Positions 13,583 to 60,300 of a stretch of 64,000 bases of DNA are shown here, in pieces. How positions within the stretch are numbered: the first letter of the stretch is position 1; each line of letters starts with the position of its first letter. The notes beneath the pieces were generated by a model. That model had not been told where the DNA came from. It was given only the letters and a program-made list of their open reading frames with translations, and made no database searches. This DNA is from Halichondria panicea (Eukaryota; Porifera; Demospongiae; Suberitida; Halichondriidae): positions 2,018,001-2,082,000 of the forward strand of contig NC_087389.1 of the NCBI RefSeq assembly GCF_963675165.1, in the 5' to 3' direction. The position numbers were made by a program, and so were the translations under genes.

Positions 13583-18146
<4,564 letters not shown>

Positions 18147-24494: not shown

Positions 24495-24714
24495 TTTTGC
24501 TGCTATCTATTCTGAAGAGTTAAGTTTTATATTTTATAGTATTTGATACAGACACACTGAATTCTAGCTTCCAAGCTAGCTAGCTACAGTGCATTTATCA
24601 CAACATGATAACACAAAAGCCTTTGTCCTTGCATGCATCTGTGTGGCTTCCATGACCTGCGAAGATTCATGGAATTGAGTTAACGACCATTTACCAAATA
24701 AATCATTGTTCAAG
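24495..24714. promoter_or_regulatory. Divergent P5CS/TIPRL promoter region
   Basis: The start codons of P5CS (24494, minus) and TIPRL (24715, plus) are only 220 bp apart, so both promoters and 5' UTRs must share this stretch. It contains CTAGCTAGCTAG-like palindromes and no clear TATA box at a standard distance. The same arrangement is kept at 41795-42014. Confidence 0.6.
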
Positions 24715-26776: not shown

Positions 26777-28364
26777 TTTTGTGGACTATAAGTAAAATAT
26801 TTATACGGGTATAAATTATATTCATGATAGAAATTTTGCAAAAAAGTGAAAAAGATAAATTTTATGTCCCTCACAAAATTATCTAGTAACCATTTTGTCC
26901 CACAGTTGCTTAACATGGCCAGTAACATTTGACAGCATGCTGTGCATGTTTCCAGACTGTTTGGTAGTGGGAAGGTCCTGGGGTAATAGGTAAGGGTCAT
27001 CACATCCATGGGCAAGTGGCAAACACACAACTTACCCCTTTAATCAATGTTTGGATAGCTGTTTCAAACTGGTCTGAACTGAACTGGCTAAAGCAGATCG
27101 AATTTCTACCATCACCTGCAGAAAATAAAGGTTTAATACATTAACGCCGACATAATCGATGTGATTGGCCTCTAGCTAGTTACCTCCTGATTTATCAGTG
27201 GTAAGTTAAGGTTTTCATACGACAACTTTGGACAAAGGCAGCTGTATGCTCACATTGCCTTCTGTATACTCACAAGTAGGCCTCAGTAGTCTACAGCCTC
27301 TAGCTGAATCAGCCACACCCAGAGCCGCACCTCTCACCTTACAAAGTCCTAAAAGTTGATTTGCGATACCAGCAGAAGCCCGGTTGGTACTTGATATAAG
27401 ACTCACGAATATAGCTGAATCAGCAATAAACTACAATATAATTATAGTAGTTCTTATAGTTCGATGGTTGCACAGTTCCATGATTTTCCACAGTTCCATG
27501 GTTCCACCGTTCCATGGTTCCACGGTTCCTACAGTTCCACGGTTCCATAGTTCCATCGTTCCTACAGTTCCATGCTTCCACCGTTCCATGGTTCCATGGT
27601 TCCATAGTTCCATGGTTCCAAGCGTTCCATGGTTCCAAGCATTCCCTGGTTCCATGGTTCCACAGTTCCATGGTTCCACCGTTCCACAGTTCCATGGTTC
27701 CACGGTTCCATGGTTCCATGGTTCCACACTTCCATGGTTCTATGGTTCCACGGTTCCACGGTTCCATAGTTCCACGATTCCACAGTTCCATGGTTCCACC
27801 ATTCCATGGTTCCATGGTTCCATAGTTCCTATACAGTTCCATTGTTCCACAGTTCCATGGTTCCATAGTTCCATGGTTCCACAGTTCCATGGTTCCAAGC
27901 GTTCCATGGTTCCACGGTTCCACGGTTCCATAGTTCCACGGTTCCACGGTTCCAAGCGTTCCATGGTTCCACAGTTCCATGGTTCCACAGTTCCATGGTT
28001 CTATGGTTCCACATCCATGGTTCCACGGTTCCATGGTTCCACAGTTCCATTGTTCCACGGTTCTATGGTTCCACGGTTCCATAATTCCACCGTTCCATAG
28101 TTCCATAGTTCCTACAGTTTCATGGTTCCTACAGTTCCATGGTTCCATGGTTCCACAGTTTCCATGCTTCCACAGTTCCATGGTTCCACAGTTCCATGGT
28201 TCCACGGTTCCATAGTTCCATGGTTCCACGGTTCCATAGTTCCATAGTTCCTACAGTTCCATGGTTCCACAGTTCCATGGTTCCACATTTCCATGGTTCC
28301 ATAGTTCCATGGTTCCACGGTTCCATAGTTCCATGGTTCCACAGTTCCATGGTTCCATAGTTCC
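26393..28364 (+). repeat. Left arm of a large inverted repeat
   Basis: The reverse complement of this segment is 29330-31301; paired coordinates sum to 57694 throughout. It holds TIPRL intron 6 (part) and exon 7, the gene X 3' end and the first part of the satellite. Arms are almost base-identical. The N gap lies in the 965-bp spacer. Confidence 0.95.
26879..27381 (-). pseudogene. Gene X, 3' exons, interrupted by a satellite element (copy 1)
   Basis: Unidentified gene. The last exon 26879-26977 encodes 32 residues ending LWDKMVTR and a stop. The previous exon 27036-27115 encodes NSICFSQFSSDQFETAIQTL. Upstream coding runs from 27274 (donor GTGAGT, phase fits) to the element boundary at 27381 and includes ASAGIANQLLGLCK and ADSARGCRLLRPTC. 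All splice sites and phases match. At 27382 the reading frame runs into the terminal repeat of the foldback element. In copy B the far flank of that element restores an open frame (see findings), so the exon was split by the insertion. Function unknown; I found no known motif. Confidence 0.6.
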
Positions 28365-30312
28365 TACAGTTCCATGGTTCCACCGTTCCATGGTTCCACA
28401 GTTCCATGGTTCCATAGTTCCTACAGTTCCATGGTTCCACCGTTCCATGGTTCCACAGTTCCATGGTTCCATAGTTCCATAGTTCCATGGTTCCATAGTT
28501 CCTACAGTTCCATAGTTCCATAGTTCCACCGTTCCATGGTTCCACCGTTCCATGGTTCCATAGTCCCATGGTTCCAAGCGTTCCATGGTTCCATGGTTCC
28601 ATAGTTCCATGGTTCCAAGCGTTCCATGGTTTCACAGTTCCATGGTTCCACAGTTCCATGGTTCCACCGTTCCATGGTTCCACCGTTCCATGGTTCCACC
28701 GTTCCATGGTTCCAAGCGTTCCATAGTTCCATGGTTCCAAGCGTTCCATGGTTCCATACTTCCATGGTTGCAAGCGTTCCATGGTTCCATACTTCCATGG
28801 TTGCAAGCGTTCCATGGTTCCACGGTTCCATGGTTTCACAGTTCCAAGCGTTCCATGGTTCCACAGTTCCATGGTTCCATAGTTCCATGGTTCCACAGTT
28901 CCATGGTTCCACGGTTCCAAGCGTTCCATGGTTCCATAGTTTCAAGCGTTCCATGGTTCCATAGTTCCAAGCGTTCCATGGTTCCATAGTTCCATGGTTC
29001 CATGGTTCCAAGTATTCCAAGCGTTCCATGGTTCCATAGTTCCATGGCTCCGTAGTTTCAAGCGTTCCATGGTTCCATAGTTCCAAGTATTCCAAGCGTT
29101 CCATGGTTCCATAGTTCCATGGTTCCAAGNNNNNNNNNNNNNNNNNNNNNNNNNNNNNNNNNNNNNNNNNNNNNNNNNNNNNNNNNNNNNNNNNNNNNNN
29201 NNNNNNNNNNNNNNNNNNNNNNNNNNNNNNNNNNNNNNNNNNNNNNNNNNNNNNNNNNNNNNNNNNNNNNNNNNNNNNNNNNNNNNNNNNNNNNNNNNNN
29301 NNNNNNNNNNNNNNNNNNNNNNNNNNNNNGGAACTATGGAACCATGGAACTGTGGAACCATGGAACTATGGAACCGTGGAACCATGGAACTATGGAACCA
29401 TGGAAATGTGGAACCATGGAACTGTGGAACCATGGAACTGTAGGAACTATGGAACTATGGAACCGTGGAACCATGGAACTATGGAACCGTGGAACCATGG
29501 AACTGTGGAACCATGGAACTGTGGAAGCATGGAAACTGTGGAACCATGGAACCATGGAACTGTAGGAACCATGAAACTGTAGGAACTATGGAACTATGGA
29601 ACGGTGGAATTATGGAACCGTGGAACCATAGAACCGTGGAACAATGGAACTGTGGAACCATGGAACCGTGGAACCATGGATGTGGAACCATAGAACCATG
29701 GAACTGTGGAACCATGGAACTGTGGAACCATGGAACGCTTGGAACCGTGGAACCGTGGAACTATGGAACCGTGGAACCGTGGAACCATGGAACGCTTGGA
29801 ACCATGGAACTGTGGAACCATGGAACTATGGAACCATGGAACTGTGGAACAATTGAACTGTATAGGAACTATGGAACCATGGAACCATGGAATGGTGGAA
29901 CCATGGAACTGTGGAATCGTGGAACTATGGAACCGTGGAACCGTGGAACCATAGAACCATGGAAGTGTGGAACCATGGAACCATGGAACCGTGGAACCAT
30001 GGAACTGTGGAACGGTGGAACCATGGAACTGTGGAACCATGGAACCAGGGAATGCTTGGAACCATGGAACGCTTGGAACCATGGAACTATGGAACCATGG
30101 AACCATGGAACGGTGGAAGCATGGAACTGTAGGAACGATGGAACTATGGAACCGTGGAACTGTAGGAACCGTGGAACCATGGAACGGTGGAACCATGGAA
30201 CTGTGGAAAATCATGGAACTGTGCAACCATCGAACTATAAGAACTACTATAATTATATTGTAGTTTATTGCTGATTCAGCTATATTCGTGAGTCTTATAT
30301 CAAGTACCAACC
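27382..30312. mobile_element. Foldback-like element with octamer satellite arms (copy 1, contains the gap)
   Basis: Starts GGTTGGTACTTGATATAAG, has about 75 bp of unique terminal sequence, then hundreds of copies of an 8-bp unit GTTCCAYR (with occasional AAGC spacers) in plus orientation up to 29129. After the gap the same satellite runs in the opposite orientation (29330 to about 30235) and ends with the complementary terminal sequence. The structure matches copy B at 44705-46394, which is complete. Here the flanks on both sides are the same gene X sequence inverted, so no independent target duplication can be read. Confidence 0.75.
29130..29329. other. Assembly gap of 200 N
   Basis: Exactly 200 ambiguous bases within the satellite. 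A round number indicates a scaffolding placeholder of unknown true size. Confidence 0.98.
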
Positions 30313-30815
30313 GGGCTTCTGCTGGTATCGCAAATCAACTTTTAGGACTTTGTAAGGTGAGAGGTGCGGCTCTGGGTGTGGCTGATTCAGCTAGAGGCTG
30401 TAGACTACTGAGGCCTACTTGTGAGTATACAGAAGGCAATGTGAGCATACAGCTGCCTTTGTCCAAAGTTGTCGTATGAAAACCTTAACTTACCACTGAT
30501 AAATCAGGAGGTAACTAGCTAGAGGCCAATCACATCGATTATGTCGGCGTTAATGTATTAAACCTTTATTTTCTGCAGGTGATGGTAGAAATTCGATCTG
30601 CTTTAGCCAGTTCAGTTCAGACCAGTTTGAAACAGCTATCCAAACATTGATTAAAGGGGTAAGTTGTGTGTTTGCCACTTGCCCATGGATGTGATGACCC
30701 TTACCTATTACCCCAGGACCTTCCCACTACCAAACAGTCTGGAAACATGCACAGCATGCTGTCAAATGTTACTGGCCATGTTAAGCAACTGTGGGACAAA
30801 ATGGTTACTAGATAA
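30313..30815 (+). pseudogene. Gene X 3' exons, inverted copy
   Basis: Mirror of 26879-27381, now on the plus strand: coding piece to 30420, exon 30579-30658 and last exon 30717-30815 ending with the stop. It has no upstream exons, because the satellite element lies directly in front. Confidence 0.6.
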
Positions 30816-30917
30816 TTTTGTGAGGGACATAAAATTTATCTTTTTCACTTTTTTGCAAAATTTCTATCATGAATATAATTTATACCCGTATAAATATTTT
30901 ACTTATAGTCCACAAAA

Positions 30918-31301
30918 TTATGTAGTTAAACTTGTAGTCTGTTTAGGAATAGTGATTTTGTGAATAGTGAGTTCCTTGGTGGGTAGAACGCTTCCCAGTT
31001 TGTTGGGGTCAGTGAGTAGTGAGGGGTGGACCTGCATGTGAGGAACAGAGATTTCCTTTCGCTGTGTGGATATATAGCATGTGTATGGATCATCGCCTAG
31101 CAACCACGATGAATTATCAAGCCAAAAATAAAGGGTGGTGGTGTCAGTGGGGTATGTGGGTCCACATCGATGCCAACTGGACCAACATAAATTTAGCGAA
31201 GAGCACTAAACGTGCTAGCATCTTGAAAAACTAAATGCATGAGTATAGCGTGTGATTTTTGGGTGCTTAATCAGCAATGCACAACGAGAAGGTGCAGATT
31301 T
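30918..31301 (-). pseudogene. TIPRL last exon fragment, inverted
   Basis: Exon 7 of TIPRL (30918-31031, 37 residues plus stop) and part of intron 6. The other six exons are missing because the inverted arm stops at 31301. Not functional alone. Confidence 0.85.
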
Positions 31302-35444
<4,143 letters not shown>

Positions 35445-36053
35445 TGAATCATCATGCATGACTCTGTTTATTGTTGATTTCTGTGTTTTTACGCCACTTT
35501 GTTGATTGCTGACTATTGCTGACTGTGCACAAACGTTTATTTATAAAAATGATGTTCTTGGATATTGACTCTGAGCACATGATTTAATAACCCAGCTAGT
35601 AGATAACTTATACTAGTGATGCCTCTTGGAACTGGACTGAGGTTTTTCTTTATGTGAGTGTGAATGCAGTTACATAAACTATAGCTAGGCTATGACATAG
35701 CCTATGTTAGCTATGTAGCTAGGCATGGCCGGCCATGGTGGTATCTGTGTTTTCCCTTTTTATGCTGATTGTATTATTACAGGTTCTGAGGTAGATATAT
35801 CTGTTGTAGTCTATATATATACCCCATGTAGAGATATGTACACACTTAATACTTTTAATTATAAATAAAAATCTCAAATTTTAAGAAAAAGAGAAAAAGT
35901 GCCACTCATTTTAATATTAATTTAAATAGTGCCAACATTATTTTACTTCTTGTCAATTAGCGTTTTAAATCAGACGATTTTTGCAGTTTTTTCGAAGTAT
36001 ATACAATGTAGTTGATAATAAAAGCATAGATGCAATTATAATAATGGTTTCAG

Positions 36054-36175
36054 GAAGTTCATGAATGAGGTTGGTGAGAGGCGACTGGCTGAGTCCTACC
36101 TGTTCAGGAGACTGGCTCAACTGACCATCTACCAGTGGACCAAACTCTCTGATATGACTGGCACACACATGCACA
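36054..36175 (+). CDS. Lone exon of an unidentified gene, second copy
   Basis: Identical in arrangement to 18756-18877, with the same acceptor and GTGAGT donor. See that entry. Confidence 0.45.
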
Positions 36176-37721
36176 GTGAGTGATGACAGCTGTATATTCT
36201 AATAGTTACCTTTACTTCCGTATAGCGCCACATTTTCTTAAGGACCAACTGTTTCACGGATTTTATATTTGAGGATTGAGTTTCAAAGTAGACTCTCGTT
36301 AATCCTTGGGACAGTACAGTTTGGCCGCGTTAGCGAGGTGGCTGCATTTTAGAAAGTGGCCCCAGCTCATTCACGGTCCTACCTCAAATCCAATGGTTAA
36401 TTTAGCGGTTCTGTTTCGTCTCGAGGATAAAAATCATTATAATTGCGCTCTCTCTTCCAATTTTCTTTGCCAAACAACACCCAAAACGTATATCCGGCCG
36501 CATTATAAGTATAAAAAAACTAGTTTGGAAAGATCAGAACAGAATAGCGAGGTGGCCGCAGCGAGTTTTGTGTAGTAATGATCTAGCTAGCAATCTGTGC
36601 CAAACGAAACGACCAGCTAGTATATCGAGGTGACCGTAATTCAGAGAGCTGAATTGAGATACTCTACTGTATTTCATGGCCATAATTGTCTAGGTTCAAG
36701 ATCGAATGAATGTCTTTGTCACCTCCTATAATATAACACACTTTCCAGCCGAGTTGCCTCTAAAATAACGCTAGGTCACCAACTAGGCCTGGTGGTATTG
36801 ATTGTATCTGGGCGTGGTTAGGAACCAAAAAACAAAAGCAAAGAGATTTTGCTAGAACAACACACCTGTCGACAAGGGCCAGCAGTGTTGGTTTATTAGC
36901 TCTATTAGCTTGTAGTCCATCACAAAAGGCAGTAATTGATAGCAAGAAACTTGCCATACCATGTTGAAAACCAGACAAAGACGTTTCTTCCTTCTGACAG
37001 GAGCTTGAGAGCCTGGGCCTGTTTTGCAATGAGAAGGAGGCCTTCTTGTTTCCGCAAGACAATGTATACGTCAATCTGAACAACTTAAACTTGCCATAGC
37101 TAGCTAGCTAGATAATCTATGGCTAGAGATTTTAGTGCTTGAGAGCATACACAGAGCTAAATTACGATATTAAACTTATACGGGGAAATATGACAGGAAA
37201 CAAAATGTGAAGAATCTGTTTCTGATTTCTGCCACGCCCAGATACAATCAATATCAGGTCGTATTTTTCAACTTCGTTCTATATATTAAACAAAATTTAC
37301 CTGGGAACGAGGCTAAGTTTCTGGCATGATATGGTTCAATGGCTACCAACCATGCATACAATGTACATGATATCTGACTCGTAGCTAGCTGCATGCTGTG
37401 CCTCCTATGCAGGTATATCGACTGGCAGAGTGACCAAGAACTTTTTACAGAACTTGCAACGTGAAATGAAGAAAATTCAAGGTCCAAAAACATGATGGTA
37501 TTAAAATGGTTGTATAATTCCAACTTTTTTTTTTATCCTCACTTAATTTATGGCATCACACATTAAATATCATGTTGTATACATGTATAATAATTATGCA
37601 CTCAGTTCTCTATATACAACATGATTATGTAAAACTAATTATTAAATGAGGGGATTGAATCCATGTGAATTAATGAGTGTACAAAAATATGACAACAAAA
37701 TAAAAAATACGCTCATTTGAT

Positions 37722-40700
37722 CTAATTGGCCAATGTGTTAGAATGATCTTCAGTTTCAGAATGGACTGGCTTGCTCTTGTCGGTAGCCAGCTGCTGATGT
37801 ATGTACACACAAGAGCCGTCTTGGCCAAAGTCTGTCACTGCATGTCCTTCACCTCTCAGTAGCCATTTTGTTGTGAGAAGTCCTTCAATACCCACCGGTC
37901 CTCTAGCGTGGATACGCCCGGTGCTGATTCCCACCTCAGCCCCCAGTCCAAATCGATAGCCATCGGCAAACCTGGTACTGGCATTGTGAAACACACACGC
38001 ACTGTCCACACATCGGAGAAACTCATCAGCTGTGGCATCTAGGGAAGAGGTCACATTTTAAATTAATTGATACATAAAACCAAGTACGTAACATCAGGTA
38101 TTCATGCACTCCTTGTAACGTGTGTTATTATTTCACGCACAAGGGGGGGTTAACCTGATTTTGTATGTTAGATGGTCAATCATTCTCACCATTTTCTGTG
38201 ACAATGGCATCAGTGTGTGAGCTGCCATAAGTGTTGATATGCTGTACTGCATCAGACAAAGAGTCCACCACCTCCAAGTTGCACTCTAGCCCCCCGTACT
38301 CAACGTGCAGTGAGGGCACTGGTCCCGAGTGGAAGGGGAGGGTGGAGCTCAGTGAAGGGCCAGGATGGATGACAACACCTCTCTCTTTCAGGGCGGCTAT
38401 CACCGACTGGAAGATGGAGGAGTTGAGGAGACTCTTGTGTAGTAGGATGGTCTCCACGGCATTGCACGCGGCAGGGTAGTCACATTTGGAGTCCACCACT
38501 GCAGAGGTAAAGATAAAAATAAATTGCCATCAACTCACTTCTCTTTTTCTTAACTAACAATGAGGGTAAAACATTGTATGCAAAGCTGGGCCTACAATCC
38601 AACTCACCAACATTGAGTGCTTTGTTGAGATCAGCGTCTTTGTCCAAGTAAACATGACAGATTCCGTCAGCGTGACCCAGGACGGGGATCTTGCCCTGCA
38701 CCTGCTCCAAGATACTTCGTACAAGACTGTTTCCTCCCCTTGGGATGACCAGGTCGATTTGGTTATGTAGCGAGAGCAACTCACTCACTTCCTCTCTGCT
38801 GTCAACCTGTAGGTTTAATTTCACAACATTATTATGTATGAAGTGATGGCCACTCTCTGGCAAGTTGTGAAAATTAGGTAACGTTTAGAGGGGAATGTGA
38901 TGACTCACCAATCCAACCGCTCCTTTGGGCACATGCAGTGAGAGAGCCTCCTGGACCAAACTATGAAGGTATCTGTTGCTATGCTTGGCCTCTTTAACAC
39001 CCTTGAGGAAAAGAGACCATTCGCTGTGGCCACTGACAGACCTGCAACCTGTAAAAAAGACACGTACTCAATAACTCCTCAAGACACGCATATGAAGTCC
39101 ATAATTCTTGAACCGAAGTAGTTATATACTCTTAGGTTCCAATGCATGACAGGGGTTCCATCTAGAGATTAGTTATTTGGGGGGGGGGGGGGGGGGGAGA
39201 TGAATTAAGTTAAGTCCTCCCCTGAAACAACATTTTCTTTTAGCTTCTCAGAATGTCAGTGCAATTTAAATGCCATTTAGTAGACCCTCTCTAAGAAATT
39301 GCAGTGGAGGGGGAAAGTTAGGTTGTTTGGGGAGCTTCGGTCCCTCTGCCCCCCACCCCCCCTGTATAGAACCCTGCATGAGTCAAGTATGCCATACACA
39401 CAAGCTAGCCTTCATAAAGAAAATACCACAATACAAAAGGGCTGGTTACCTGAATGAGACAGTCTGGCCTGGACTCAAAGATGACCAGAAGCACTCCAAT
39501 GGGCACTTTCTGCTGCTCCAACACCAGCTCCTTTCCCACCAGTGTTCGTCTGATCACTTGACCAACGTGGTCGCCATTGACAACTGCCTCAGCCAGCTGT
39601 TGTAGTCCATCTGAGAGGCTCTCCAGTTTCTCGTGAGTAAGCTTGAGTCGAGATTTGAGAGCATCTGCAAGGTCAATGGCTTCTTTGATGTCCTTCTGGT
39701 TGGCAGTGATAATTTCCTGCTCTCTCTCCATCACCAGGTCTGCTAGACGGTGAAGAATAGCGGCTCTCTATGACAACAAAGTAGCAGTAACTTAACTTAT
39801 GTGCACCACTTATTAAAAACACACACACCTGGTCTGAGGAGAGTGCTTGGAGAGCATAGCTTCCATCACGAGCTGTATTGAAAGAGTGCGTAACAATAGA
39901 ATGCAAAGTCACAGATAAGCCACAAGGATGTATTACATATTACAGTAGGCGCAAATGCTAGCTCTTCATAATCATACACACTAACTAAATACCCTAGCTT
40001 TACCTTCATCTGCCAAAACAGCACCACTGGTTGCTAACTCAATGTGTCCATTCCTCGTAATAAAGGTGCCGACAGGTTTTCCTTGGACAATGTCCAGAAT
40101 AGTCTCCCCTTGTCTCATCCCATTGGCAATGACAACAGCTGTCTCTCCCTCCACTGCCCTCACAGCTGACTGTAACTATAGGGGAACATTGAATAAGCAC
40201 TTCCACATTATCATAGTGTCTAGGTACAGTAGCGTTAACATTTGAAACAGCCTCCAGGCCAGACTACGTCGAAAATGAGTACTACGTACATCATAACATG
40301 AACAATAATAACACACCTTTGACTCCATTCCTCCTCGGCCCACTCTGGACTTGCCTCCAAACTTGACCTCGTTGTTGGCATGCTCAGGGTAATAAGTCTG
40401 AATAAGTCGTGAGCTGGGGTCACTGGGTGGACCGGTGTACAGTCCATCCACATCTGATAACAGCACTAGGAGGTCTGCATTCATTGCCGTGGAAACCTGA
40501 GCCGCCAGCTGGTCATTGTCTGGTATGCTTAGGACCTGTCGATGATTGTGTGTGTTTGAGTAGGTGGCTCAATAATACTATACAAACGTCTCTGTGTGTA
40601 GTCTCAACAGTGTCTGCATTGTCTGCATTGTGCAATGCAGTGAGGGTGGAGCTCAAGCATTTGACAATAGAAGCCATTGTTCTGATGGATGACCCATGTG

Positions 40701-41794
40701 CTCAACACATGCATGTAAACAACAGATTCACTCGTTAACCGTCTGTGACTCGAAATTATATACCATCATATTTCAATGGAAGCTTCAGCCTTGCATATAA
40801 TAGCTCCTCACAAACGCAAAGAGTATTACGACTACAGGAAACTTCTAAGTCAAATCCACTAGGCTATAATTAGGAGTACAGAATGGTCAGTATTCTCTAT
40901 TGAGTGCACTAGTTGAGCACTTGCCTCGCTTACATTTTCCAGGTCACTACCAATCTGGGGGGTAGGTGCTACCACATCGTTGCCATTGAGTACAGGGACC
41001 ACTTTCATGCTCAGAAGGGCATTCATTGTGTTGAGCAAATTCCTTTGACTGCTGCCATGGGTCAGATCGTTGGAGGTGATTAGTACCTGTGGTTGTTTAT
41101 ATGCCAGTAATCCACACATTTAGCAATACAATGTCACGAAAATATATACGTTAGAAGCTAGAGAACTACCTGAGCACAGCTGATTCCATACTGGGCAAAC
41201 ATGGTCTCATAGAGCGTCATGAGTCCGACCTGCCCTGATGCAGCACATGCCCTGGGTTCCAAGTCCTCCCCCTCTGAGTAGGTGGTCTCACGAGAGTTCA
41301 GAAGTGCGTGTCTCACACTTCGGGACAACTGCTTTTCTTGTCTCATACTCTGCTTTCCAATGGCCACTGCACCACTGGTCACTACTACCACATCTTTGCC
41401 ACGATTGTGTAGCCATGACACCTGTACCAAAGACAACATACAGATGAGAGTTATATAGGTCTATCTGCACAGAAAATAATAAAAATGTTACCCCATAATC
41501 CAACGTATACATATACATAGGTGGTGATATATATAGGCATTGTGTTTAACAATCCCAAGGCCTGACCTGCTCAATTATACTTGCTAGTCTCCCTAGGGCA
41601 ATTCCACACTCATCGTCCCTAGTAATCACAGCTGATCCCAACTTGACAACAATCCTCCTGCTGTTAGCAAGGTCTCCCCTTACTGCTGCAATCTTCCTCT
41701 CAGTCTTCAGTCCACTATACCTCCTCACAGGGGCTTTGAGGCTGATGTGTGTCTGCAATGACTTTACCTTGCTCTGTGTGAGAAGCCTCCACAT
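37722..41794 (-). pseudogene. ALDH18A1: P5C synthase second copy with 2-bp frameshift
   Basis: Exons: 41567-41794, 41170-41421, 40934-41086, 40317-40535, 40004-40175, 39829-39872, 39450-39767, 38909-39048, 38608-38806, 38190-38498, 37722-38038. Ten exons match the first copy. Exon 8 is 140 nt instead of 138 because GAGGAGGAGACC reads GAGGAAAAGAGACC (about 39005-39018). This breaks the LLLKGGKEA block and shifts the frame before the catalytic cysteine. If real, this copy makes no active reductase half; if a sequencing error, it is a duplicate of a functional gene. A C-to-A change sits close by. Confidence 0.85.
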
Positions 41795-42014
41795 TTTTGC
41801 TGCTATCTATTCTGAAGAGTTAAGTTTTATATTTTATAGTATTTGATACAGACACACTGAATTCTAGCTTCCAAGCTAGCTAGCTACAGTGCATTTATCA
41901 CAACATGATAACACAAAAGCCTTTGTCCTTGCATGCATCTGTGTGGCTTCCATGACCTGCGAAGATTCATGGAATTGAGTTAACGACCATTTACCAAATA
42001 AATCATTGTTCAAG
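41795..42014. promoter_or_regulatory. Divergent P5CS/TIPRL promoter region, second copy
   Basis: Identical geometry and sequence to 24495-24714. Both divergent starts are kept. Confidence 0.5.
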
Positions 42015-44099
42015 ATGGCCAGGACTCCTGCTGCTAGTAGAAATGAGTTTGAAGCCGGCCCATGGCGGTTCCTGGTTGTTAAGAACCACATATTGAGGTC
42101 AAGCTGTGAGAGAGGTAGAGAAAATGGCTGTGATTCTGATAATGGAGATCTCTGCACTGTGTGTAGGTACGTAGGTGCTCGTCGTCATACGTGGCCGTGG
42201 GCAAACATAAATGTCGCAGTATAGTTTTAGGTATAGTTACGGTAATCTCACGGCTTGGTAAAATGTTTATGTGATCTCTTAATCGTTACATCTTTAACTC
42301 GTAAATAAAGTACATTTTGCTACCATGATCATGATACTATACAAACTCAGGTATGGCCATGAGCTGAATCTCCCCTCGCTTCCAGAGATGGTATTCCCAG
42401 AGAGTCGGCTAGAGTTAGAGCACGAGTGTGGTTGTGTGCTCAGCTTCATCACCCTGGATGCCCTCAAGCTCATCAACTCTACAGAGGAGCCACTCAAAGT
42501 GGCAGCTGCTGAAGACTGGGTCAAAACAAGGTGACATCTGCTAGCACTTTTTGCTTGTCATGATTATTGTCCACATCATTTGGAATGTGTAAACTTAGTA
42601 TGGTACTGAAGTTATTGCTGTGCCTGTTTAGCCCTGTTGCAAAGATTCTACAAACCCTGAAACAATGGCAGACTTAAAGCTAATTAACGTTTTGACAACG
42701 TGATGTACCGAATGATAATTGCCATGTCTGCTTTTTATAGAGGTACCGGTCTGCAGGAGGTTGGAGTAGTGGTGAAACCGTTTGATTGGACCTACACCAC
42801 CGACTACAAAGGAACCCTCTCTAGCAAAGGAACCACTAACTTGGAGGTGAGAGAGAGTATATGTATACACTCTATCAGTCTATTGTTGGAATTATCGCTG
42901 TTGATTTTTCTTTATTCCCGGCCATTATAGGCTACAAGTTCTTTAGCAATTATAGACATTCCATGGCCCTCTAGAGATATTCCACTTAGCAAATTGTCTA
43001 CTCGCAGGTGACTGACACCAGTGATCGTATAGACTTTGAGCAGCTTAAACAGCAAGAGCAGATATTCTTCTACGATGAGGTGATCTTGTACGAAGATGAG
43101 CTGGCAGACAATGGGACAGCTGTGTTCAGTGTGAAGATTGTGAGTTGGAGGGATGCATTCGGAGACTTTGAAATCCCTACCTGATTGTAGCTTCTTAGAT
43201 TTGGGCCGTCAGTAATCCCTACTCATACGTATCTTCAGTTTCAAGTCCAGTCAAAAGATACGGAACTATGTACTGTACAGTCTTTCTCTTCCATGCCTGC
43301 AAAGTGCTATTAATGTACGTATGTTATGTTATGTTTTTTTGTTCAATGAATTGCAGAGGGTGATGGCGAGTGGTTTTTTTATTCTGTCACGCTTCTTCTT
43401 ACGAGTGGACGGTGTGTTAGTGAGGATGAATGAGAGTCGCTTCTACCACCAGGTGAATGCTTGTTGTGGATCAAAAAAATAAGTAATGTCCTTCCTGCCT
43501 GAAGCGAGTTTGACACCACCCCTGAAGCGAGTTTGACACCACCACTTCACATTCCTATTAAAGGATAAGTGCATGTTATGTTATCAGGTCACATGGTGTT
43601 TCTCTTCTCTAGGCTGGCACCGACCATATCCTCCGTGAATACACGAGTAAGGAAGCAAAGATAGCAGATCTGAAGGTAAGCGAAAACTGATACCCACGGC
43701 TTTAGTGCTATTCTGCAATCTGCACCTTCTCGTTGTGCATTGCTGATTAAGCACCCAAAAATCACACGCTATACTCATGCATTTAGTTTTTCAAGATGCT
43801 AGCACGTTTAGTGCTCTTCGCTAAATTTATGTTGGTCCAGTTGGCATCGATGTGGACCCACATACCCCACTGACACCACCACCCTTTATTTTTGGCTTGA
43901 TAATTCATCGTGGTTGCTAGGCGATGATCCATACACATGCTATATATCCACACAGCGAAAGGAAATCTCTGTTCCTCACATGCAGGTCCACCCCTCACTA
44001 CTCACTGACCCCAACAAACTGGGAAGCGTTCTACCCACCAAGGAACTCACTATTCACAAAATCACTATTCCTAAACAGACTACAAGTTTAACTACATAA
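42015..44099 (+). CDS. TIPRL: TIP41-like protein (copy 2, intact)
   Basis: Exons 42015-42166, 42351-42530, 42741-42846, 43008-43139, 43357-43452, 43613-43675, 43986-44099. It encodes the same 280 residues as copy 1. The only clear structural change is a 23-bp tandem duplication in intron 5 (43498-43543). For role and motifs see copy 1. Confidence 0.9.
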
Positions 44100-44201
44100 T
44101 TTTGTGGACTATAAGTAAAATATTTATACGGGTATAAATTATATTCATGATAGAAATTTTGCAAAAAAGTGAAAAAGATAAATTTTATGTCCCTCACAAA
44201 A

Positions 44202-44704
44202 TTATCTAGTAACCATTTTGTCCCACAGTTGCTTAACATGGCCAGTAACATTTGACAGCATGCTGTGCATGTTTCCAGACTGTTTGGTAGTGGGAAGGTC
44301 CTGGGGTAATAGGTAAGGGTCATCACATCCATGGGCAAGTGGCAAACACACAACTTACCCCTTTAATCAATGTTTGGATAGCTGTTTCAAACTGGTCTGA
44401 ACTGAACTGGCTAAAGCAGATCGAATTTCTACCATCACCTGCAGAAAATAAAGGTTTAATACATTAACGCCGACATAATCGATGTGATTGGCCTCTAGCT
44501 AGTTACCTCCTGATTTATCAGTGGTAAGTTAAGGTTTTCATACGACAACTTTGGACAAAGGCAGCTGTATGCTCACATTGCCTTCTGTATACTCACAAGT
44601 AGGCCTCAGTAGTCTACAGCCTCTAGCTGAATCAGCCACACCCAGAGCCGCACCTCTCACCTTACAAAGTCCTAAAAGTTGATTTGCGATACCAGCAGAA
44701 GCCC
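44202..44704 (-). pseudogene. Gene X, 3' exons (copy 2), split by foldback-like insertion
   Basis: Last exon 44202-44300, exon 44359-44438, and coding piece 44597-44704. Across the insertion, at 46395 and beyond, the minus strand continues with an open frame reading CDENIFDKASAGIANQLL once one target copy is removed. The exon was therefore whole before the element arrived. Function not recognised. Confidence 0.65.
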
Positions 44705-46394
44705 GGTTGGTACTTGATATAAGACTCACGAATATAGCTGAATCAGCAATAAACTACAATATAATTATAGTAGTTCTTATAGTTCGATGGTTGCACAGTT
44801 CCATGATTTTCCACAGTTCCATGGTTCCACCGTTCCATGGTTCCACGGTTCCTACAGTTCCACGGTTCCATAGTTCCATCGTTCCTACAGTTCCATGCTT
44901 CCACCGTTCCATGGTTCCATGGTTCCATAGTTCCATGGTTCCAAGCGTTCCATGGTTCCAAGCATTCCCTGGTTCCATGGTTCCACAGTTCCATGGTTCC
45001 ACCGTTCCACAGTTCCATGGTTCCACGGTTCCATGGTTCCATGGTTCCACACTTCCATGGTTCTATGGTTCCACGGTTCCACGGTTCCATAGTTCCACGA
45101 TTCCACAGTTCCATGGTTCCACCATTCCATGGTTCCATGGTTCCATAGTTCCTATACAGTTCCATTGTTCCACAGTTCCATGGTTCCATAGTTCCATGGT
45201 TCCACAGTTCCATGGTTCCGTTCCACCGTTCCATGGTTCCACCGTTCCATGGTTCCACCGTTCCATGGTTCCAAGCGTTCCATAGTTCCATGGTTCCAAG
45301 CGTTCCATGGTTCCATACTTCCATGGTTGCAAGCGTTCCATGGTTCCATACTTCCATGGTTGCAAGCGTTCCATGGTTCCACGGTTCCATGGTTTCACAG
45401 TTCCAAGCGTTCCATGGTTCCACAGTTCCATGGTTCCATAGTTCCATGGTTCCACAGTTCCATGGTTCCACGGTTCCAAGCGTTCCATGGTTCCATAGTT
45501 TCAAGCGTTCCATGGTTCCATAGTTCCAAGCGTTCCATGGTTCCATAGTTCCATGGTTCCATGGTTCCAAGTATTCCAAGCGTTCCATGGTTCCATAGTT
45601 CCATGGCTCCGTAGTTTCAAGCGTTCCATGGTTCCATAGTTCCAAGTATTCCAAGCGTTCCATGGTTCCATAGTTCCATGGTTCCAAGCGTTCCATGGTT
45701 CCACGGTTCCACAGTTCCAAGCGTTCCATGGTTCCACAGTTCCAAGGTTCCACGGTTCCATAGTTCCACGGTTCCATAGTTCCACAGTTCCATGGTTCCA
45801 CAGTTCCACGGTTCCAAGCGTTCCATGGTTCCATAGTTTCAAGCGTTCCATGGTTCCACAGTTCCAAGGTTCCACGGTTCCATAGAACTATGGAACCATG
45901 GAACCATGGAACGCTTGGAACCATGGGACTATGGAACCATGGAACGGTGGGACCATGGAACGGTGGAACTATGGAACTATGGAACTGTAGGAACTATGGA
46001 ACCATGGAACTATGGAACTATGGAACCATGGAACTGTGGAACCATGGAACGGTGGAACCATGGAAATGTGGAACCATGGAACTGTGGAACCATGGAACTG
46101 TAGGAACTATGGAACTATGGAACCGTGGAACCATGGAACTATGGAACTGTGGAACCATGGAACTGTGGAACCATGGAACTGTGGAAGCATGGAAACTGTG
46201 GAACCATGGAACCATGGAACTGTAGGAACCATGAAACTGTAGGAACTATGGAACTATGGAACGGTGGAATTATGGAACCGTGGAACCATAGAACCATGGA
46301 ACTGTGGAACATCGAACTGTAGGAACTACTATTATTATATTGTAGTTTATTGCTGATTCAGCTATATTCGTGAGTCTTATATCAAGTACAAACC
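44705..46394. mobile_element. Complete foldback-like element with octamer satellite arms
   Basis: 1690 bp. The ends are complementary: GGTTGGTACTTGATATAAG at the left, and GGTTTGTACTTGATATAAG read from the right on the other strand, followed by about 75 bp of matching unique sequence. Inside, the GTTCCAYR satellite runs plus to 45885 and minus from 45888, with a perfect 10-bp palindrome around AA (45876-45897) at the turn. Flanks are AGAAGCCC (44697-44704) and AGAAGCCT (46395-46402), an 8-bp target duplication with one mismatch. No transposase, so it would be non-autonomous. Drosophila FB elements have a similar plan (long inverted repeats of short tandem units), but no homology is claimed. 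Confidence 0.75.
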
Positions 46395-47783
46395 AGAAGC
46401 CTTATCAAATATATTCTCATCACAATCTATCATGCATTGTGCATGCTATGACCTAAGTGTATAGACGCATCATTCGTTGACTAATCCCCCCCTCATTGTT
46501 GTGATTCACTAGTCTAGCTCCAGGCTCTTCAAAAGTGGTTTCTTTGCGGCCTGGAATCGAGGCTGTTAAAATGTTATGCCGGTGATCGCATATTTTGAAA
46601 ATTCTATCATGTATAAAAACTCAGGCTAGGCCTGCCCACTCACACTCACCAGAAACCATGAGCTTTTATCCATACACAGTAAAAACATATTCGTTACAGT
46701 GACATAAACATGTTAAATAAAGTAAAAACGCATCTTAATGTAGAAATGACATACATTTCTGTCATTTTAACGATGCATCTCATATAACATCCATGTGTTA
46801 ATTTTGCTGTGTAGGTATATGCTGTGATACTTCCCGTATCGAATCATTATCTGTCATGATCTGCTGTTGCCATTGAATGGCAACAGCAGATCATGACAGA
46901 TACTTTACATTTACCTCATGCACTATTGTTCCTCCGCTCACAACAGGATACGCGTACCCATAACTATCGATTCTCTATCTATGAATTCACCTATACTTGC
47001 ACATACATACACCAGTGTCATCAGACTCATCATCACCTGTGCACACATGTTTAAGAATGCTAAATTTGCTCTGTTTTGCAAAAAATTAATGTTTGTAGAG
47101 ACCTATAGATGATCATGTTGCACACAATTAACACCATGCTTACTTCTGTTAATTAACACTCATGTTTGATAATCATGACCATGCACACTCTGCAAATTAT
47201 GGCTTGAGGCTACGTAACCATGTAATATAAAACAACGGGCTTTCGGCCGCTCGTTTTTATTTATTGGCCACATTTTGGGTTTCTGAGGGACGCCATGCTC
47301 GGTTACTCCCGGCCGAAGCAGTTGACATTATATTACTCACTGCAATCAAGAACTAGGTCCAACCATGATTCCACATTTCCCCTCATCCCTCCAATTGCAA
47401 TTTCCCCCATGTCTGTGCGAACTTCAAGGCAATTGCACTAATTGAATTTGTTGTGCCATAGATACTATAAATTACAATTGTAATGTATCTATGGTTGTGC
47501 TATGGCTGATAGGGTAAGAAGCCAGTGTAGTCGTAGACTAATAACACCTCACTAGGCTTGCCCACGTACATCATGTACACCATGCACTTTGCATAATTAT
47601 GGTATGACAGTGATACTTCCTGTATCCAGTCACATAGTGTCATACATGTGCACTCATCAGTGCATGGTAGAGTATAGCTTATTATACATACTTTGAATTC
47701 CATTTCATATCCTATCACCAGAAAATAATTATGTGCAGTGCAAAAGTAAAGAAAATTTAGTGGGTGAATGTTCAAGAGAATTG
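46395..47783. other. Intergenic region; holds a perfect 51-bp palindrome
   Basis: The first about 80 bp continue the coding frame of gene X on the minus strand (in-frame stop TAG upstream of CATGCACAATGCATG unless spliced). The rest shows no convincing exon. A palindrome lies at 46850-46900. Confidence 0.5.
46850..46900. repeat. Perfect palindrome, 25-bp arms, 1-nt spacer
   Basis: The arm starts TCTGTCATGATCTGCTGTTG and its exact complement follows after a single G. It would form a cruciform or hairpin. No flanking gene gives it an obvious role. Confidence 0.9.
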
Positions 47784-50189
47784 TTAAACATTGAGGCTGA
47801 TTTTTGTAGACATATGATCTAGTGTTCTTTCGAGAGTGGCCTCTGTTGTAGACGATTGAAGAGTTTTTTGCTGACTTCTAGATGTATTCTCACCTGATTT
47901 GCTTGGCTTGGTTGTATCAAGGGTTGTGCGGCAAACTAGAAGATTCCAGTAAAGAGCAAACACATGTTTTGTTAACAGAAAGGCAACAAATATTACAAAA
48001 CCTTGAGTACTGTTTAAGATGATAAAAGGATACCAAGCCCAGTTAGTGCCAGCAAGCAATGCAATAAAACCGAACACCCAAGTCAGTCCAGTTACTGAAA
48101 ACACAGCAGCGTTCACACGGAAGAAAGGAAGATTATGTTTTTTGTCCAGTTTTGAGCTTGATCGAGCTGCAAGACAGAGGTATGTAGTAACTACAAGAAA
48201 CAGTACCATGTTGACAACGAGAGATATCACTAGAGGCACAATGAATGCAACAATGGCTGATTCGAGGTGATTGATCCAACAACTTCCCAACCGACCATCT
48301 TTCAACACACCATACAAGACAAGATCTTCAGTTGTGAAGTCAACAAGAATCGATGTGACGGTAATAGCTAATGGTAAACTCCAACCAACAACAAAATACA
48401 CACCAAATACTACCTTTTGCTTGTATTTAGAGTCCAACTTCATTTTAGTCGCTTGATAGAACGTCCTTGCCATCTGAAATGACATGATAGTCATCCATGA
48501 AAACTGTGACAAGAAGAAAAAATGAAGGCAAATTGCAACACTCTTACAGAGTTCTATGTTGGGAAATGCTTGAGTAACAGGTCCACCAATGATAATGAAG
48601 AGATTGTTCAATAGAATAGCAGCAGAAACGTTCATAAGGATCAAACTAGGTAATGTTCGGAGGCTCTTGAATATTCCATATGTCAGCAAAACTATTGCAC
48701 TACCAATAACAGACAAAGAACACCCAATGTATGTGAGAATAAAGTAACCTTCAGGATAGGAGTAGATAGTCACACTTCTAACAATTGTAGTGCCATTTGG
48801 AGGACAAATAATTGGTCTGCCAAAGTCATCATATTCAACAATACTGAACAATTCTTCTTCATACACAATTGTGTTGTTACCCAAATCCGTAAATTCTGAA
48901 TTGTTGAGCGCAACCAAACCACTGGGACAGTCAAAAAATTCTCCAAATAGTGAGTTGTTTAAACAAACTACTGGCTGTCCAATAAGGTCAAACTCAACAA
49001 TCATAAGCACCTGACCATTGTACAGCAGAGTGTCATTGTCAACGAAGACATAATCCGAGATGTTTAATGCCACAAAGCCACTCAAACACTGTGTTGTAGT
49101 GTTAGCAGAGCTCCCAATCAGAAAAGCACAACGACCTCCATTTTCAATGTAGCCTTCAGGACAGAGGGTAGGTCTACACTCCAACCCCAAAGCAGCTTCT
49201 CCATCAGGGCAATCTACAGTCACTGTCACCATCTCTGTCATTACTGACACTTGTACCTGTCCACCTCCCAAGTTACTAAGCGTTATCGTGAAGGGAATAC
49301 CATTACGGGTTGGTAGTGGTGGCACAATCCCTTCAAGGGGTCTGTGCACAGGTGCACATTCCAGAGGTATTTCAGTTCTAAGACTTGTTGATGAGTCGGT
49401 AAGACATAGATAAATTTGTTCACCATTACACACTGCACAATTCTGGTTTCTGTACAGAGTTCCAGATTTAGTCATCACAATATCATATGGTCCATTTTCA
49501 CATGTCTTAATCATTGCAGTATACATTTCTTCACTCAGTTCTTGTCTAGTTAGAACTTCCAAACTAGAGAGATCTAAGCAACTTGAAATCGAGGGAAAGC
49601 AGGACCTTGGTCTGGGAATAGAGGTGAGACTGGGTGCTTGGTATGAGCAGGTTTGGCATTGTGTTTGGAAAATTGTGGGATCCATTGCAAGCAACTGTTG
49701 GATTCCTACTGCAGCAAGTTGCTCATACACGTAACTGGTACAGGCAAGGTCGGGTTGCCATACTGCAAATCCTCGAGCTCTATTGCAAATGGCACAGAAG
49801 TCATTGGAATAAACCATTCCAGTACTGATATCTGTAATTGGAGGGAGAGAGCTGTTCAAAGAGACACAGTTGTCCCTCACTAATGCTTGGGTGGCGTCAT
49901 CAGTGGACCAACTGCTGGGGCAACTTGAGACCATCCAAAACGATTCATTGACTTGTGGCTCGATTCTGTTGTCAGGATATATAGAACGACATACAAATCC
50001 AGGTGGCGTAATAGTATTTAGAGTGGATTCACAACAATCTCCAAACAATTCGCACTTGCCATCACATTTACAAAGGCCATTGAACTGACCATCACCTTCA
50101 TTGCATGTACTGCAAGCACTTTGTCCTTGCACTCTAGTAGAAATTGATACTAATATTGCTATAACAGAAAAGTAAGCTGTGTACTTCAT
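47784..50189 (-). CDS. Somatomedin-B-like seven-transmembrane receptor (family B2/methuselah-like)
   Basis: Single exon, 801 residues. A signal peptide (about residues 1-22, hydrophobic YFSVIAILVSI, ending VQG) is followed by a cysteine-rich module CSTCNEGDGQFNGLCKCDGK...CCES at about 26-53, the pattern of a somatomedin-B domain. Next comes a long extracellular region rich in Asn-X-Ser/Thr sites and cysteines, with two related segments (GFVALNISDYVFVDN and GLVALNNSEFTDLGN) and the Cys-rich GLECRPTLCPEGYIENGG. Seven hydrophobic helices follow at about 490-750, starting YFILTYIGCSLSVIGSAIVL and including GLTWVFGFIALLAG (TM6), a family B hallmark. The Ser/Thr-rich tail is about 48 residues. I see no GPS cleavage motif or GAIN domain. 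Plasma membrane; ligand unknown. Start chosen at the ATG directly before the signal peptide. Confidence 0.9.
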   Translation of the reverse strand: MKYTAYFSVIAILVSISTRVQGQSACSTCNEGDGQFNGLCKCDGKCELFGDCCESTLNTITPPGFVCRSIYPDNRIEPQVNESFWMVSSCPSSWSTDDATQALVRDNCVSLNSSLPPITDISTGMVYSNDFCAICNRARGFAVWQPDLACTSYVYEQLAAVGIQQLLAMDPTIFQTQCQTCSYQAPSLTSIPRPRSCFPSISSCLDLSSLEVLTRQELSEEMYTAMIKTCENGPYDIVMTKSGTLYRNQNCAVCNGEQIYLCLTDSSTSLRTEIPLECAPVHRPLEGIVPPLPTRNGIPFTITLSNLGGGQVQVSVMTEMVTVTVDCPDGEAALGLECRPTLCPEGYIENGGRCAFLIGSSANTTTQCLSGFVALNISDYVFVDNDTLLYNGQVLMIVEFDLIGQPVVCLNNSLFGEFFDCPSGLVALNNSEFTDLGNNTIVYEEELFSIVEYDDFGRPIICPPNGTTIVRSVTIYSYPEGYFILTYIGCSLSVIGSAIVLLTYGIFKSLRTLPSLILMNVSAAILLNNLFIIIGGPVTQAFPNIELCKSVAICLHFFFLSQFSWMTIMSFQMARTFYQATKMKLDSKYKQKVVFGVYFVVGWSLPLAITVTSILVDFTTEDLVLYGVLKDGRLGSCWINHLESAIVAFIVPLVISLVVNMVLFLVVTTYLCLAARSSSKLDKKHNLPFFRVNAAVFSVTGLTWVFGFIALLAGTNWAWYPFIILNSTQGFVIFVAFLLTKHVFALYWNLLVCRTTLDTTKPSKSGENTSRSQQKTLQSSTTEATLERTLDHMSTKISLNV

Positions 50190-57394: not shown

Positions 57395-60300
57395 TTAACA
57401 TGAATTAGATCTACATGTTATACACAGCCATCCTCTTGGCCTGACCTTGATGTTCATGCATTTAAAGTGAAACCACTTTTGGCATTCTGTACACTCGATC
57501 ATTCGGCTATCATATGTCTCTGGAAGACCACAAGTGCAGTACAGCTCGATGATTATCTGTTTGGGATCACATCTGTTGATTGCTGCCGAATTTTTAGATT
57601 GAGGAAAAGTGCTGAACGTTTTAGCTTCAAAACAGTGCTGAATGTGTGAACGCATTTGTTGTGAGTCATACGTTACATCTTTCGTACTCTTCGCCTGTGC
57701 AGCATTGTATGCATTTGCAATGCTGAAAACACCACAGTCCATTTCTCCTTCTTGCTTCTGTACAGGCTCAACGTAAACTTTGAGTTTGTTGTTTACCGCA
57801 AATTGATTGCCGTATATTTGAGCTAGCTGTACTTGAAGACTTGAGGTTAATTCTCCAGTTGAACAGCTGTCGTATAGTCTCAGTTTTCCATTGGTGAGGC
57901 TGGAAACAACCCAGTGCTCTCTTTCCTCAACAAATAGTATCTGAACGGCTGCATATAATTATAGGCGATAATTATTATTATACACTATGTACATTACAGT
58001 AATATAATTAGTGATCCATCGAGATAACATTATATAAGCCTAACCCGTATACCTCTTACAACAGAGTCATGACATTGCATTGCTTTAAACTCTTTTTGAG
58101 TAAGTAATGTCGATTGAAGACCATGCAGATGAGGGAACTGATACCTCAGCACTTCATGGGCAGCATAATTATACATATGCTTGTCACATAGTTTTCCTCT
58201 CTTTACAACTGCCCTATCCCTGTAACGTAGATCTAAGTCAGGTATCCAGAGACTCCCAGCATACCTGGTCTGAGAATGTACAATAATTATTATGTAGTTA
58301 ATAGTATATCTTAGGTTCTACATATTAATTGACCGTGCCTGATCACAAAATTAATGTCAGGACAATTATGCCATGCACGTGGCTGACAGAAGTTACCTTT
58401 TGACTCTTAGGTACAGACTGATTAGACTTTCGTCTCTTAGGTGGTGGTGGACGATCTAAGGGGACATCATCAATTGGTTGCAAATGAGTCACCACAGGTC
58501 CATGTCCATATATTCTGGTGGGGTGGGACCATCGGATTTCTCCGGTGGGGTGGGGCCATTTGGATCTTCTGGTGAGGTGGGGCCATTGGATTTCTCTGAT
58601 GGGGTAGGGCCATTGGATTTCTCTGGTGGGGTAGAGCCATTGGATTTATCCGGTGGAGTTTGGCCACTGAGAGCTACATTATAGGGATCGAATCTCATGC
58701 GCATGCAGGCTACATGCATGTATATATGTGCAGTATAAAATTGCCACCTGTGCTGGTAGCTAAATAAATACCTTTTTGTTCAACCAATGAAGAAGGATCC
58801 ATATAAGCCTGTATTATGCATGTGTTATTTATCACAACTATGGTATATATAGTTATAGGATTAGCTATATATACATTCATATTTACCTTGAGACATTTGA
58901 TATTACATTTCTTTTTTAACACCTTCCCATCCAAGTCCTTAAGGGTATAGACACCCTTTCCATCTGAGGTCTTAATAATGTATGGTCCACTATACTTGTT
59001 TTCGAGCTTTCCACCTTTCCTCTCCTTTTGTTGGGTGTTCTCAACCAAAACCTTGATTCCAGGTTGCAGTTCCTAAATATAAAATGTATTTAATTTGCTT
59101 AGAACAAACTGCACAGTTTGAAATCATATATGCTTCGTACATAATTATAGCATTCGCACACATGAATGTGCAAGTGTATATATACTTGCATGCAGCCTGT
59201 ATAATATATATATAGGGCTGTATAATTATATACCTCTGGTGAATGCCGTTTATCATAGCACTCCTTTTGCTTTTTTTGAGATTTTTTATGTTTTCACCAG
59301 CTATGCTCTTTATATCTTCTTGCCTCTTGAGCATTTTCTCAATAAAAGCATCTGCAGTTGTCTCTGTATCTATATCTTCACTGGTCACTGTTTCGTTTTG
59401 CTCTACATCTGCTTCTATAGGCAGCCGAGCTTCACGATGAAACATCATGAAGAATGGCGAATAGCCGGTTGATCGATGTTTCGACACTCGGTATGCAAAC
59501 AGAATAGTGTCTAGCTTTGTATCCCAATCATTGTGTGCTTCATTCACTAACTTGCTGAGAGAACGACAGATTGTCTGATTGAATCACTCTGTGAGGCCAT
59601 TAGTCTGAAAATTCAGTAATTAGCCATAATAATTATACCATAATTATAATAGTTGCATGTATATCCTATGTATTCACTCCTTTTTGCACTAGGTAAAAGT
59701 AAAAACGTTCACTCCTTTTTCGAACTTCCTTTCTGGGGTGGTGTGAAAGTATATCTATATATATATGCCATAATTTATTATACAGTATTTAATTATGTGC
59801 ATGCATGCTTCTTACTTGAGGATGAAAGGCGGAAGTGATTCTATGCTGTGTGTTTGTTCTTTTAAAGAGTGCCTCAGTAACTTTATTGACAAATTCTCTT
59901 CCTTGGTCACTGAGGATAACAGTATAGGGCAGCCGTATGTGCAAAATACCTGCGTTACAGTAAATAATTATAACTAAGGGCCGTTGCATGCACAGCACAT
60001 AATTTATATAATTATACCGAGTATATAAGACGTTGGCTACTGACAATGCAGTTTTGTCTTTTAGAGCAGCAGCTACAGCCCACTTTGTGTAGTAATCTGT
60101 AATTGTCATCAAGAACTTGTTTCCTGCTGGAGTTACAGGCAGAGGTCCCACTAAATCCATTCCAACCTGATACCAGGCTTCTTCTTTAACAGGAATGGGA
60201 TGAAGTGTTGCATTAGTTTTATGCAACTTATGGTTTTGGCGCTGGCAGTGGTCACATGAAGCAATCTGCAAGAGAAATACCGTTCAATGCACCAAACACC

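Follow-up and report, generated by a model that had tools for sequence, protein, structure and literature searches.

A probable foldback-type DNA transposon family that carries its own octamer satellite in the sponge Halichondria panicea

Introduction

FB/FB-NOF of Drosophila and a sea urchin element with long terminal inverted repeats (TIRs) have inverted arms built of short tandem repeats and, in some copies, a coding centre. The sea urchin element, attributed to Liebermann in 1983, reportedly makes 8-bp target duplications. The repeat units of both differ from those described here, and the comparison is one of structure. Beyond Drosophila FB, the foldback plan is already documented in Tm1 of nematodes, in Galileo and Tetris of flies and in sea urchin elements. 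Most foldbacks have been assigned to the Mutator/MULE superfamily (PMC4079207).

Tm1, a Mutator/Foldback family of root-knot nematodes, has composite TIRs made mostly of 13-15 bp tandem repeats in variable copy number, a unique outer motif, mostly 9-bp (8-10) target duplications, and MITE-like, passenger and transposase-encoding members, in all of which it resembles the family reported here (PMC3169594). Tm1 differs in its repeat unit and ends and in the size of the copies described (~1-2.6 kb, against 1.7-14 kb here; PMC3169594), and the transposase found here has OTU/CXC-like domains and no Pfam transposase match. Tm1 is the best documented parallel. Tetris of Drosophila virilis shares the foldback plan, 8-10 bp duplications and TIR tandem repeats that seed satellite DNA, but its repeats measure ~220 bp and no autonomous copy was found, whereas the family reported here has an 8-bp unit and an autonomous candidate (PMC4079207). 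Galileo has long, internally repetitive TIRs resembling Foldback (PMC3688188, PMC3573991), and its tandem repeats contain extra transposase-binding sites (PMC3688188). Unlike the 903-amino-acid protein described below, in which neither a THAP nor a P-element RNase H domain was matched, it belongs to the P-element superfamily with a THAP domain (PMC3688188, PMC3573991).

How short satellite arrays and near-palindromes come to be scattered through euchromatin is a matter of debate. The genome described below combines a coding relative and non-autonomous copies with unfilled sites, and has two families whose transposases share ancestry but whose satellites do not. The design is a new version of the known foldback one, and its transposase is unclassified; what sets it apart are the kilobases of very short, almost pure satellite, the OTU/CXC-like transposase and the presence of two such satellites in one genome.

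Results and Discussion

The window analysed comprises 64,000 nucleotides of Halichondria panicea contig NC_087389.1 (positions 2,018,001 to 2,082,000). A first-pass annotation had described a foldback-like element in it, with complementary unique ends of about 75 bp, inverted arms of GTTCCAYR octamers that switch orientation at 45886, and a near-exact 8-bp target duplication, and each of these features was recovered (Table 1). The unique 72-bp end begins at 44705 with GGTTGGTACTTGATATAAGACTCACG, and the element closes with 70 bp that are inverted-complementary to its first ~72 bp (96% over 75 bp). TRF delimited a left arm of ~135 copies of GTTCCATG (44782-45883) and a right arm of ~55 copies in reverse orientation (45885-46328), the flip falling at 45886/45887. 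With the family-typical ends GGTTGG...AACC, the element spans 44705-46394 between two near-identical 8-mers; when moved by one base, the duplication is exact on both sides. As single-stranded DNA, the element folded at -579 kcal/mol, compared with -208 +/- 7.5 kcal/mol for 12 dinucleotide shuffles, with 73 terminal and 486 cross-arm base pairs.

Table 1. Coordinates of family A and family B elements and of their parts. Positions without a contig or locus prefix refer to the window.
Feature	Position	Strand	Remarks
Left target-site duplication AGAAGCCC	44697..44704	.	one copy at empty paralogous site
Left duplication, alternative reading CAGAAGCC	44696-44703		
Left TIR, starts GGTTGGTACTTGATATAAGACTCACGAATATAGCTGAATCAGCAATAAAC	44705..44776	+	27 genome matches
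Left satellite arm, forward GTTCCAYR octamers	44777..45886	+	TRF, unit counts
Right satellite arm, same octamers inverted	45887..46327	-	TRF; adjoins left arm without spacer
Right TIR	46328..46394	-	
Right target-site duplication AGAAGCCT	46395..46402	.	
Right duplication, alternative reading CAGAAGCC	46394-46401		
Left half (TIR + forward arm), copy in first 13.4-kb unit	27367..29129	+	
200-N assembly gap within array	29130..29329	.	
Inverted copy of left half (arm + TIR)	29330..30327	-	99.95% to 27367-28364
Inverted copy of left flank 26394-27366	30328..31300	-	abuts second unit's start; possible assembly artefact
Family A, two-ended copy	C17:1654898-1660201		5.3 kb; duplication GAAAAACT/GAAAAACT
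Family A, two-ended copy	C5:6281438-6287473		6.0 kb; duplication CACCGGTA/CACCAGTA
Family A, two-ended copy	C1:12104175-12107602		duplication AGGATCTC x2
Family A, two-ended copy	C5:6442444-6444533		duplication TAAAAATG/TAAAAATC
Family A, two-ended copy	C1:4676580-4690570		14 kb; duplication GGAAATTT x2
Family A, two-ended copy	C4:4147433-4149515		ends damaged, without duplication
Family B foldback elements	L060:7304-9131; L070-L072		
Family B copy	C3:3784933-3786649		inverted 9-bp arms, CAACGTTT/CAAAGTTT
Family B copy	C15:3486228-3489561		arms flank degenerate transposase
Family B copy	C3:1126574-1131383		
Family B copy	C8:3589042		
Family B ~29-kb span	C1:5224618-5253919		forward arrays 5226-5232 kb, reverse arrays 5252-5253 kb

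The search of the 131-Mb genome with the element end, which had been proposed as a check, placed it at more than 20 other sites, satellite-armed copies among them (25 matches to the right end). Both ends and inverted satellite arms were kept at seven loci, the window included, and 8-bp duplications (8/8 or 7/8) were present in six of the seven. Since a random pair of 8-mers would match at 7/8 or better in only ~4 of 10,000 cases, these duplications are far beyond chance; their length fits the Mutator/MULE range of 8-11 bp. Family TIRs measure ~70 bp and start with GGTTGG, and copies range from 1.7 to 14 kb. Two loci had one end plus arms (C9:3815650 and C1:7639801) and one had arms without a readable end (C10:3095345); in the latter array (L065) no TIR could be read, and its left end abuts a high-copy repeat. 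Certain TIR copies carry no satellite, such as a ~135-bp MITE-like copy at C14:2619514. By structure the family falls into the foldback class: its tandem-repeat inverted arms vary in length between arms and copies, its unique outermost termini are conserved across several copies, and target duplications and empty sites are present.

Empty sites, another check that had been proposed, were sought by searching the genome with the joined flanks and aligning the matches base by base, and paralogous ones were found for five loci. The 14-kb element sits in repeated sequence of which ~20 or more other copies lack it, and the three that were aligned each carried a single GGAAATTT. One empty site was found for C5:6281438 (98% identity), one for C1:12104175 (82%) and three for C5:6442444. 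For the window copy, a diverged paralogue past the window end (C13:2084068-2084261, 74%) reads ATACCAGCAGAAGCCTTATCAA; as predicted for removal of the element with one target copy, it has a single CAGAAGCC followed by TTATCAA. Empty sites with a single 8-mer establish that insertion involved entire units together with their arms. The same paralogue holds a different ~1.7-kb insert ~70 bp from the site of the window element (L077, C13:2082001-2084300). The C17 target lies within a short tandem duplication, the other unit of which, ACAAATTGAAAAACTGTTCTATAAGT, is an uninterrupted site (right flank in L023, C17:1660202 onward).

The window insertion had also been placed in a coding exon, on the ground that excision restores an open frame. 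A minus-strand frame is indeed open across the joined flanks. However, it is not conserved in the empty paralogue, where frame-breaking indels lie on both sides of the site; the coding status of the joined frame is therefore unproven, and the exon reading was not sustained.

The satellite was almost confined to the family. An exact 22-mer, GTTCCATGGTTCCATGGTTCCA, occurred 146 times in 131 Mb (its reversed control, 0 times), and 98 of 100 occurrences among the matches listed fell in family elements. In 2,555 family octamers the commonest tail was ATG (1,196), followed by ATA, ACA, ACC and ACG, and steps were mostly of 8, with some of 9 and 16. CpG decay was rejected as the source of the YR variation, because TG and CA should be equally frequent under symmetric decay, and TG (1196) was far in excess of CA (376), TA (432) and CG (169). 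An origin of the satellite from a TIR-internal motif was likewise dropped, k-mer sharing being not significant in family A and weak and not significant in family B. The C17:1654898 and C5:6281438 elements are sister copies in opposite orientation: 49% of distinct 32-mers were shared between the C17 left and C5 right arms and 42% between the C17 right and C5 left arms, compared with 18% and 27% between the two arms of one element, and the matched arms were 87% identical over 2.2-2.4 kb. A short central spacer with TTGAACA-TTTTAAA is common to six copies and gone from the window copy; it is reversed between C17 and C5:6281438, as the sister orientation predicts. At the level of sequence, the sister copies show that the arms travel with the element.

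The autonomous relative that the first-pass annotation had proposed to look for has a candidate in the 14-kb element. Between its two ends lie a forward arm of 2.1 kb and a reverse arm of 3.4 kb, separated by a non-repetitive centre of ~8 kb that holds an intact, transposase-like frame of 903 codons (L039:5514-8222, minus strand). Several shorter frames follow one another on the opposite strand; in one of them a P-loop-like motif, GPSETGKST, was recognised by eye. No Pfam transposase was matched by the 903-residue protein, and the Pfam MULE domain matched neither it nor its relative in a second family, B. For both proteins the top NCBIfam match was IS256, weakly (E 0.01 and 0.007 for A and B), at residues 260-354 of the 903-residue frame and at the corresponding place in B. 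OTU-type matches to the 903-residue frame were weak and under the Pfam cut-offs; the frame also has a cysteine-rich stretch, and the homologue of this stretch in L062 matched MSL2-CXC at 3.7e-5, just under the curated cut-off. The family-B protein gave a weak match to an ISL3-type helix-turn-helix. The A and B transposases are 38% identical, and D221, D290 (D-D/N-C-C) and E418 (GGT..NE..H.HIN) are invariant across them, the E motif also being present in relatives on C5 and C23. AlphaFold models of the transposase domains did not confirm an RNase H fold, being of low confidence (pLDDT 38 and 45) and giving no match in a fold search against the PDB, and no relatives were found in viral contigs or among solved-structure sequences. 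From these motifs and matches we conclude that the 903-residue protein is a predicted D/D/E transposase on the IS256/MULE side, its membership of MULE not being proven. Because the arms of the 14-kb element are only ~80% like those of other copies, it may not be their direct source.

Family B was recognised from the transposase relative at C1:5248812 (L060), which is followed by a 9-bp satellite, GGTAATGTA/GGTAACACT, and then by an end that differs from that of family A. At every locus examined that carries an exact 47-mer of this satellite, all but C11:5036646, the 47-mer lay at or beside family-B ends. These findings indicate that the foldback plan is common to the transposase clade and that the satellite is not. 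When the joined flanks of C3:3784933, a member of family B, were searched for in the genome, no empty site was found. A separate frame inside the ~29-kb span encodes a P-element-like transposase (TNP-like RNase H, E 3e-24; L060:1054-2932). Nested in family B or lying beside it is a third foldback-type element (L072:257-1315, corresponding to C3:1126656-1127714, and L053 from ~2615), which has a TIR ATGGCGCGCCGTGTGTTTCAATAACAATGTCTGCA and inverted arms of a 43-bp satellite, with a AAGGGCGT duplication on both sides in L072. Near the C23 transposase relative (L062, L082; C23:16580-18965) a 9-bp GTTGCTGTA array is present on just one side; the parts of the contig examined contained no inverted partner, and a 36-mer of this satellite was confined to the C23 contig. 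A high-copy repeat (L065:700-845, ~2,150 first-look candidates) lies directly next to two satellite arrays, the octamer array of C10 and the GTTGCTGTA array of C23.

All in all, the window element is very probably a non-autonomous copy in a family of foldback-plan cut-and-paste DNA transposons, judging from its sequence and that of its relatives. The initial proposal of a mobile foldback element with its own satellite thus holds up, with further armed copies, 8-bp duplications and empty sites. The 903-residue protein would recognise the TIRs, and perhaps repeated sites in the arms as well, synapse and excise the element plus satellite as a single unit, and re-insert it through 8-bp staggered cuts. 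Slippage, unequal exchange and copying templated by the inverted repeats would lengthen and shorten the arms between jumps and remove their centre. An element excised and re-inserted with its satellite would make the satellite part of the mobile unit, spread by transposition. It is scarcely credible, in comparison, that an octamer array predated the structure and was inverted, with the unique ends as mere flanking repeats and no mobile unit. The arms are satellite-like, and a few arrays have no intact ends (C3:4760358, C1:6185930, C10:3095345), yet the same ends and arms recur at seven loci, with duplications in six and empty sites in five; the satellite hardly occurs outside family elements, sister copies have matched arms, and empty sites bearing one copy of the duplicated 8-mer refute this reading.

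As to what moves the family, 8-bp duplications are usual for hAT transposons and would fit a hAT transposase encoded elsewhere in the genome, the affiliation expected in the first-pass annotation. We consider this very unlikely: the same-ended 14-kb relative encodes a different type of protein, IS256/MULE-like with D/D/E residues and OTU/CXC-like domains; no hAT transposase or dimerisation domain was matched in the 903-residue frame or in family B; and the termini, GGTTGG, are unlike the CAG-like end of the hAT type. The coding core of the 14-kb copy could also be a passenger, or a second transposon nested inside the satellite arms, with something else mobilising the family. The divergence of that copy's arms from the rest would agree with this, as would the second, opposite-strand gene set with its P-loop-like motif. 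It is nevertheless improbable, because family B independently couples a 38%-identical transposase to its own satellite arms and ends, which makes the association of transposase and satellite arms a recurrent one.

Returning to the transposon reading, the two families might tentatively be taken for a distinct lineage of animal DNA transposons, in which an IS256/MULE-like transposase is joined to OTU-protease-like and CXC DNA-binding-like domains and the arms are always pure short-unit satellite, its sequence replaced between families (8-bp GTTCCATG in A, 9-bp GGTAATGTA in B); we regard this as possible rather than probable. If true, such a lineage would keep inventing and dispersing satellites and palindromes. 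The material makes testable the role of arms as transposase-binding arrays (cf. Galileo), the replacement of satellites and arm-driven local duplications.

The window also contains a 13.4-kb duplication: 13999-27366 differs from 31297-44704 by just four substitutions and two indels. The duplicated unit appears to carry a P5C-synthase-like gene, recognised by eye, and the window insertion would lie outside its visible exons. At the end of the first unit stands a companion copy of the element, in which a 200-N gap is followed by an inverted piece of 1,971 bp (973 bp of these being flank) that meets the second unit at ~31297 with little microhomology. With the foldback arm as template, a duplication-inversion-duplication could have produced this structure. 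It is a serious possibility, in view of the near-zero divergence and the scaffold-style gap, that it is an assembly artefact, namely two overlapping contigs left unresolved, with a chimeric tip. The window right arm is most similar (93%) to part of this companion's left arm in inverted orientation, and arm-to-arm copying is a possible cause of that right arm, put forward with reserve because the companion copy (27367-31300) is itself doubtful. Elsewhere in the window, a secretin-family receptor lies at 47787-50189 and a retroelement integrase remnant at 59041-60271 on the minus strand, its rve match (E 1e-7) falling slightly short of the Pfam cut-off.
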